Shown here in pieces: positions 2,132-36,126 of a stretch of DNA of 40,069 bases. Where the stretch lies: NCBI GenBank assembly GCA_018646985.1, contig JABGTR010000032.1:1-40069 (forward strand). The letters run 5' to 3'. Below the pieces are notes generated by a model. The model was not told the origin of the DNA and ran no database searches. It worked only from the letters and a program-made list of their open reading frames with translations. The translations under genes and the position numbers were made by a program. The stretch comes from Minisyncoccota bacterium (lineage in GTDB: Bacteria; Patescibacteriota; Microgenomatia; UBA1400; PJMF01). Position 1 is the stretch's first letter. Every line of letters begins with the position of its first letter.

Positions 2132-2195
2132 GAAATATCAAATAATTTTTTGTTACACTTTTGGTAATCTTCATCTGCTTTAGTAATTACTAAGT

Positions 2196-2262
2196 GGGCC
2201 CGGCAGGCTTGCCCAATCAACCTGATAATTTGATTTACCGGGTTCGATTCCCGGCGGGTCCA
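2196..2262 (+). ncRNA. tRNA-like domain, copy 1: G3:U70 acceptor and canonical T-arm, no canonical anticodon arm
   Basis: GGGCCCG(2196-2202)/CGGGTCC(2255-2261) 7-bp acceptor with G3-U70; CCGGG-TTCGATT-CCCGG T-arm (2238-2254); A2262 discriminator; only 35 nt between acceptor 5' strand and T-arm. Confidence 0.75.
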
Positions 2263-2315
2263 CATTCTAGATTTGATACTTAAAACCAATTTAAAAAACA
2301 TATATAATTCGAATT

Positions 2316-2385
2316 AATTATCAGGTTGTTAGGCGAATCTGCTTAGAATCGCTTAAACCGCTTCACTTTGAAGCGGTTTTTGTTT
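2316..2385 (+). ncRNA. Downstream partner segment of copy 1: complementary strand, hairpin, terminator
   Basis: AATTATCAGGTTG (2316-2328) is the perfect reverse complement of 2218-2230; hairpin TTAGGCGA/TCGCTTAA (2329-2356); then terminator. Confidence 0.6.
2355..2385 (+). terminator. Rho-independent terminator
   Basis: AAACCGCTTC-ACTTT-GAAGCGGTTT followed by TTTTTGTTTT. Confidence 0.9.
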
Positions 2386-2391
2386 TATACT
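2386..2391 (+). promoter_or_regulatory. -10 element TATACT 7 nt before ATG (leaderless-type start)
   Basis: TATACT-N7-ATG at 2399. Confidence 0.5.
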
Positions 2392-35928: not shown

Positions 35929-35997
35929 GGGGGTGGTGCTGGTTGCCGGACTAAACCTGAGAAATTTGATCTGGGAGTTCGATTCTCCTCACCTCCA
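35929..35997 (+). ncRNA. tRNA-like domain, copy 2: G3:U70 acceptor and canonical T-arm, no canonical anticodon arm
   Basis: GGGGGTG(35929-35935)/CACCTCC(35990-35996) 7-bp acceptor with G3-U70; GGGAG-TTCGATT-CTCCT T-arm (35973-35989); A35997; 37-nt insert sharing GGyTTGCC...AACCTGA.AA..TTTGAT with copy 1. Confidence 0.75.
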
Positions 35998-36051
35998 CAT
36001 TTTTAAAATTTTAAGATTGTTTTAGATTAAAAATTCTGTTAAGATGATATC

Positions 36052-36126
36052 AATTCTCAGGTTCGGTCTATAATGCACCAGCATTAGATTAAATCAAAAT
36101 GTCCCGCTTCAGGCGGGATTTTTTGT
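36052..36126 (+). ncRNA. Downstream partner segment of copy 2: complementary strand, hairpin, terminator
   Basis: TTCTCAGGTT (36054-36063) is the perfect reverse complement of AACCTGAGAA (35954-35963); hairpin TCTA(TA)ATGC-ACCA-GCATTAGA (36067-36088); then terminator. Confidence 0.6.
36102..36124 (+). terminator. Rho-independent terminator, overlapping the 3' end of the convergent HD gene
   Basis: TCCCGC-TTCAG-GCGGGA followed by T6. Confidence 0.85.

Follow-up and report, generated by a model that had tools for sequence, protein, structure and literature searches.

The window, meaning the whole stretch of 40,069 nucleotides analysed here, carries two copies of a tRNA-like RNA gene belonging to an undescribed family in Patescibacteria. 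Judged from sequence, the family is marked by a G3:U70 acceptor pair, by a partner small RNA with its own promoter and terminator that occurs in three gene orders, and, in many genomes, by a promoter that dprA and further competence genes have in common with it. We infer expression, charging, inhibition by pairing and toxicity. The overall reading, that an alanine-accepting tRNA-like RNA would be induced with competence and silenced by a dedicated antisense RNA, perhaps as an addiction module, has in our judgement an even chance of being right. No description of such tRNA-like RNAs or of the RNA pair was found in the databases and open-access literature searched.

A tRNA-like RNA with an alanine-type acceptor

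The two copies and the parts of copy 1 were located as follows.

2196-2262, + strand: tRNA-like RNA, copy 1 (sequence and covariance models R1/R2; 63.3 bits with R2)
2203-2212, + strand: shrunken D-like hairpin of copy 1, GCA-GGCT-TGC, 3 bp (sequence; formable in 58 of 60 members)
2215-2235, + strand: anticodon-like arm of copy 1, AATCAA-CCTGATAAT-TTGATT (sequence)
2238-2254, + strand: T-arm of copy 1, CCGGG-TTCGATT-CCCGG (sequence; covariation)
35929-35997, + strand: tRNA-like RNA, copy 2, with G3:U70 and without the competence motif upstream (sequence, covariance model)

As claimed in a preliminary description of this DNA, the top half of a tRNA was found at 2196-2262. The acceptor consists of 7 bp (2196-2202/2255-2261, GGGCCCG/CGGGTCC), position 3:70 is G-U, and the discriminator is A73 at 2262. 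The same description held that there were too few nucleotides for an anticodon arm; this was mistaken, as the D hairpin and the anticodon-like arm both fit within the 35 nt between acceptor and T-arm. The second copy that it reported is real. Joint folds gave z = -5.6 for the 201 nt of the copy 1 locus and z = -4.6 for copy 2. The copy 1 value, together with stems that are paired and covarying in 58 homologues, indicates that the fold is not due to chance.

A covariance model built from five copies, and a next one built from 31 matches, were used to search genomes. About 60 tRNA-like loci were found in Patescibacteria, in the genome studied here, in other genera and families of the same order and, across the phylum sample, in several additional families; carriers include Patescibacteria group bacterium OS_PC_MetaG.mb.40 and bacterium AM_0466. 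The members in the own genome are copies 1 and 2 (c1, c2), C5:21199, C16:6797 and C36:8022, plus a decayed copy at C5:18035. True members were mostly 67-72 nt long and scored about 45 bits or more; matches of 73-76 nt were mostly ordinary tRNA-Ala. Fifty-eight members were aligned, so that the search of related genomes proposed earlier did yield covarying homologues. Acceptor stem, T-arm and discriminator were all present across the alignment. Acceptor and T stems were paired in 98.4% of cells, and stem covariation was 0.483 versus 0.133 in shuffled alignments (0/500). Position 3:70 was G-U in 58 of 58 aligned members, as in copy 1; acceptor pairs 4, 5 and 6 vary freely and covary. Training on G-U copies biases the model somewhat towards G-U, but one changed pair would cost few bits against scores of 45-83.

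The remainder of the molecule is less regular. A D-like hairpin of at least 3 bp could be formed in 58 of 60 members, and 55 of the 60 have GG in the D loop. The anticodon stem is often imperfect: 25 of 60 members have 4-5 of its 5 pairs when read in the canonical register, and 35 of 60 have U33. The triplet at the anticodon position is variable and would be read as alanine in one member of 60 only.

The RNA was compared with known classes. ARAGORN reported no tRNA or tmRNA gene in the window, and Rfam gave no match at gathering score. Sub-threshold matches of copy 1 were to tRNA (RF00005; 26.3 bits, cut-off 29), mascRNA-menRNA (RF01684; 26.4 bits, cut-off 42.5) and permuted tmRNA (13.4 bits, cut-off 47), and for copy 2 a weak, partial match to tmRNA scored 14 bits (cut-off 47). 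No tag-peptide reading frame was seen by eye in the loci of about 190 nt, in line with the earlier remark that none was visible. The genome has an ordinary tmRNA elsewhere (L003, G000:C34:24361-24782; 115 bits in Rfam), hence the tRNA-like RNA is no tmRNA substitute; a permuted or two-piece tmRNA was ruled out by the absent tag and this separate normal tmRNA. ARAGORN missed L003 despite its Rfam score. The tRNA-like RNA is thus not a tRNA, a tmRNA or a member of an Rfam family. Its first description as an unclassified non-coding RNA of alanine type is supported, and related genomes do contain covarying homologues.

Some loops resemble worn anticodon arms, and a few relatives were called tRNA-Arg or tRNA-Leu by ARAGORN, as might be expected of tRNA genes in decay or of non-functional repeats derived from tRNAs. 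However, this explanation is contradicted by the strong compensatory change in the stems and by the conserved partner complementarity and promoter, and we find it scarcely credible.

Two variant loci were recorded. L121 (G072:C8:101484-101595) and L122 (G072:C8:193663-193774) carry a nearly identical 41-nt insertion in the T-loop, after GTTC, which is perhaps a small mobile insert or intron. L022 (G000:C5:18035, minus strand) has lost the 5' acceptor strand and kept the promoter and terminator of the partner RNA; it is likely a decayed member.

Antisense partner RNAs and their gene orders

The downstream half of the interval assigned earlier to copy 1 proved to be a gene for an antisense RNA, which had been overlooked. 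The elements of both copies are listed below.

2218-2230, + strand: H, antisense-complementary segment of copy 1, CAACCTGATAATT (13 contiguous pairs with 2316-2328)
2280-2308, + strand: sigma70-type promoter of the copy 1 antisense RNA, TTAAAA-17 nt-TATAAT (promoter scan; family-wide -35/-10 peak)
2316-2382, + strand: antisense small RNA of copy 1, 5' end predicted, with H' at 2316-2328, D-arm complement at 2331-2342 and terminator at 2355-2379 (complementarity, duplex energy, promoter, terminator)
36017-36045, + strand: sigma70-type promoter of the copy 2 antisense RNA, TTGTTT-17 nt-TAAGAT (sequence; below the threshold of the consensus scan and unreported by it)
36054-36126, + strand: antisense small RNA of copy 2, 5' end predicted, with H' at 36054-36069, D-arm complement at 36074-36083 and terminator at 36101-36119 (duplex energy, terminator)

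H of copy 1 is complementary to H' (AATTATCAGGTTG), and GGACTAAACCTGAGAA is complementary to TTCTCAGGTTCGGTCT in copy 2. The duplex of copy 1 with its own partner was calculated at -34.3 kcal/mol, versus a mean of -18.1 with other loci, and that of copy 2 at -36.7 kcal/mol. Nearly every member of the family has such a partner small RNA. Complementarity of its 5' end to the anticodon-loop region extends over 12-20 bp, and the partner has its own terminator and a sigma70-type promoter lying 5-8 nt ahead of the complementary segment. The complement is rebuilt in different letters at each locus. Own-locus duplexes were mostly far stronger than cross-locus ones (in 18 of 28 members, the own site ranked first among 28), and specificity for the cognate partner mostly holds also among copies in one genome. 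In 49 of 60 loci, the best ungapped complementarity was higher than in any of 20 shuffled versions of the four flanking windows. Most of the other 11 have a visible partner that is shorter or interrupted; no convincing partner was found for G024C21b and G011C80.

Matches to the -35 and -10 boxes peaked 5-7 nt before H' across the family. At the peak, the mean -35 match was 4.06 of 6 versus about 2.5 elsewhere, and the -10 match was 3.1 versus about 2.2. Intrinsic terminators close the loci scanned for them. Because the promoter peak lies just before H' and terminators close the loci, transcription of the partner RNA (RNA 2) most likely starts at H'. At L128 and L132 (G164:C2, G150:C1), the convergent partner RNA is also complementary to the acceptor 3' end (ACGGCTCCACCAG).

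The best complementary site lay on the same strand downstream in 43 of the 60 loci and upstream in 4, and on the opposite strand downstream in 11 and upstream in 2, some of the weakest sites being noise. The partner is convergent in G091, G150, G164 and G239, and lies upstream of the tRNA-like gene in G025C25 and G025C28. Three apparent orphans all had a partner, two of them upstream and one, G002C45, 3.8 kb downstream. For the last, the sequence was predicted from the complementarity, and a match (TTGCTAAATTTTCACT) was then located on that contig in the same orientation, beyond a serine-recombinase gene; it is preceded by TTGAGT-16-TATAAT and followed by a terminator. As two mismatches were allowed in that search and two unrelated chance sites also matched, the case rests on a 14-nt exact core with promoter and terminator in the usual places. 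In this region (L045, L183, L184; G002:C45:372-4290), a large serine recombinase gene lies directly against the 3' end of the tRNA-like gene, which seems to be an integration site.

The tandem downstream, tandem upstream and convergent partner genes indicate that two separate transcripts are involved, and the two-RNA architecture appears well supported. Adjacent RNA genes of which one is complementary to the other, as in RNA-only toxin-antitoxin systems, were thus found in the sequence. A single pseudoknotted RNA, in which H and H' would pair within one transcript as in a domain of the tmRNA type, is suggested by the tandem halves of copies 1 and 2 and their joint folds. It cannot explain the complementarity kept with convergent, upstream and 3.8-kb-distant partner genes, a promoter stands directly before H', and we regard such an RNA as very unlikely.

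A promoter shared with competence genes

The two-RNA loci were further characterized by the region upstream of the tRNA-like gene.

2154-2184, + strand: competence-type promoter of copy 1, TACACTTTTGGTAA-9 nt-GCTTTAGT (25.4 bits with a 31-bp matrix that had copy 1 in its training set)

The matrix was trained exclusively on regions upstream of tRNA-like genes in family f1 and covers one family well. In the order of the studied genome, its 31-bp motif is the promoter of the tRNA-like gene and stands also immediately before dprA, ssb, comM and comF. Among 80,078 positions, the copy 1 promoter was the only site in the window of at least 12 bits; the same scan found no competence motif upstream of copy 2. 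Elsewhere in the genome, the TACACTTTTGGTAA motif precedes comF, dprA, ssb, comM/YifB, an ORF6N gene and a lamin-tail gene, with matrix scores of 21.7 (ssb), 23.9 (comM), 19.0 (comF) and 21.4 bits (dprA). Directly before dprA, the matrix scored 16-27 bits in 14 carrier genomes (L152, L157, L162-L165, L168-L170, L172-L175, L178); the next-best site in these loci was mostly below 11 bits, and L152 has a second site of 19.5 bits. Other motifs common to the tRNA-like gene and dprA were recognized by eye in G150/G164 (AATTTAAGAAAATTTTAACTTTG), G239 (GCAGGAATAATTCAGGACTT) and G022 (GTTACGGATTTT). No motif shared with dprA was seen in the distant lineages G253, G284, G242, G136, G235, G091 and G261. 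The tRNA-like promoter would accordingly be counted in the competence regulon in many genomes, as far as shared motifs tell. A regulon map for this organism is provided by the sites of the form TACACTTNNNGTAR-9 nt-GTTTTACT (L064, L066, L070, L073, L089, L091, L093, L094, L097), which precede comF, dprA, ssb, comM, ORF6N, lamin-tail and small genes of no known function.

No conserved protein neighbour was found, neighbours being unrelated between loci, and the position of copy 1 next to ddl/murF therefore looks incidental. The cell-wall alanine-donor role once suggested from that position was dropped, there being no conserved cell-wall neighbours; the regulatory context of the RNA is DNA uptake, not the cell wall. 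A leader or attenuator of the cyclophilin gene was also rejected, as copy 2 and most other members lack that gene downstream and partners can be convergent. As to a phage origin, one scan of viral contigs with a pattern covering part of the family returned only an ordinary phage tRNA.

Proposed mechanism and comparison with known systems

G3:U70 and A73 form the identity set of alanyl-tRNA synthetase. In the proposed mechanism, the tRNA-like RNA of 67-72 nt (RNA 1) would be transcribed from the competence-regulon promoter. It keeps the features that 5' processing, addition of CCA, binding of EF-Tu and charging by alanyl-tRNA synthetase are expected to require; from the T-arm and the GG of the D loop, a folded elbow that EF-Tu can bind seems likely. 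RNA 2 would be made separately from an ordinary sigma70-type promoter, and its 5' end would pair with the anticodon-like loop of the cognate RNA 1, often on into the D-arm, so that RNA 1 is unfolded or trapped and inactive. When competence is switched on, RNA 1 would exceed RNA 2 and act, most simply as an alanine-charged tRNA mimic disturbing translation.

Of the possible roles, that of an RNA-only toxin-antitoxin (addiction-like) module linked with DNA uptake would fit best. Several mutually specific cassettes per genome, at unrelated sites and nearly always with a partner, fit an addiction module, and so does the decayed member, whose neighbouring partner gene looks intact. Addiction is one of several possible reasons for antisense control of a tRNA-like RNA. 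It has been argued that transformation serves to clear mobile DNA from genomes (PMC4774983), and in that case competence would be the right moment to act. A fuller version is tentative and, taken whole, somewhat unlikely: the toxin would be an alanine-charged tRNA mimic with non-alanine anticodons that mis-inserts alanine or jams the ribosome, the antitoxin an antisense RNA to the anticodon arm, and the competence wiring would punish loss of the cassette by transformation, with pair-specific alleles across Patescibacteria.

Two other roles use the same parts. RNA 2 might constitutively repress other mRNAs, with RNA 1 as a stable tRNA-shaped sponge that titrates it at the onset of competence. 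The inducible-type promoter on RNA 1, the sigma70-type promoter on RNA 2 and their extensive pairing agree with a sponge, but H differs between copies in one genome, so that each small RNA would need its own mRNA targets, and the strict G3:U70 (58/58) is left unexplained; we consider it unlikely. Equally improbable to us is a beneficial regulator without an addiction role, in which a competence-phase alanyl-tRNA-like RNA slows translation or growth during DNA uptake and RNA 2 sets threshold and recovery. The promoter common to dprA, ssb, comM and comF and the full set of tRNA identity and folding features speak for such a regulator, whereas the several diverged and mutually specific copies that lie at unrelated sites of one genome resemble addiction cassettes more than a single regulator.

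The family adds a class of tRNA-like RNAs with dedicated antisense partners, and nothing comparable was found in the literature searched on small RNAs and competence in Patescibacteria. It also exposes a promoter code for the natural-competence regulon in these bacteria, and makes testable what triggers or accompanies DNA uptake and whether tRNA mimics can be toxins under RNA control.

Among known RNAs, bacterial tRNA-Ala shares G3:U70, A73, the T-loop and the lack of an encoded CCA. The tRNA-like RNA differs from it in a D-arm that has about 3-4 bp and a very small loop, an imperfect non-alanine anticodon arm, an antisense partner and a competence promoter. The mascRNA-menRNA class (RF01684) likewise has a reduced D-arm and a poor anticodon arm, but is an animal RNA cut from a long RNA, and we know of no antisense partner for it. 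In tmRNA (RF00023), the alanine-type acceptor with G3:U70, the T-arm and an odd D region recur, and the G-U pair is also fixed (PMC3985003). The tRNA-like RNA, unlike tmRNA, has no tag frame or pseudoknot domain, is 67-72 nt long and has an antisense partner.

In RNA-only toxin-antitoxin systems (type VIII, SdsR/RyeA; CreTA), both partners are RNAs, as here. The antitoxin of SdsR/RyeA is an antisense RNA. CreT is a toxic RNA (PMC10097628). The present pair differs from these in that the putative toxin would be tRNA-like and alanine-accepting, there is no CRISPR effector, and the promoter is linked to competence. As in cis-antisense pairs of plasmids and of type I toxin-antitoxin systems, recognition would involve a loop and a single-stranded 5' tail and is mostly pair-specific, whereas the RNA targeted here is tRNA-like and non-coding, and is neither an mRNA nor a replication primer.
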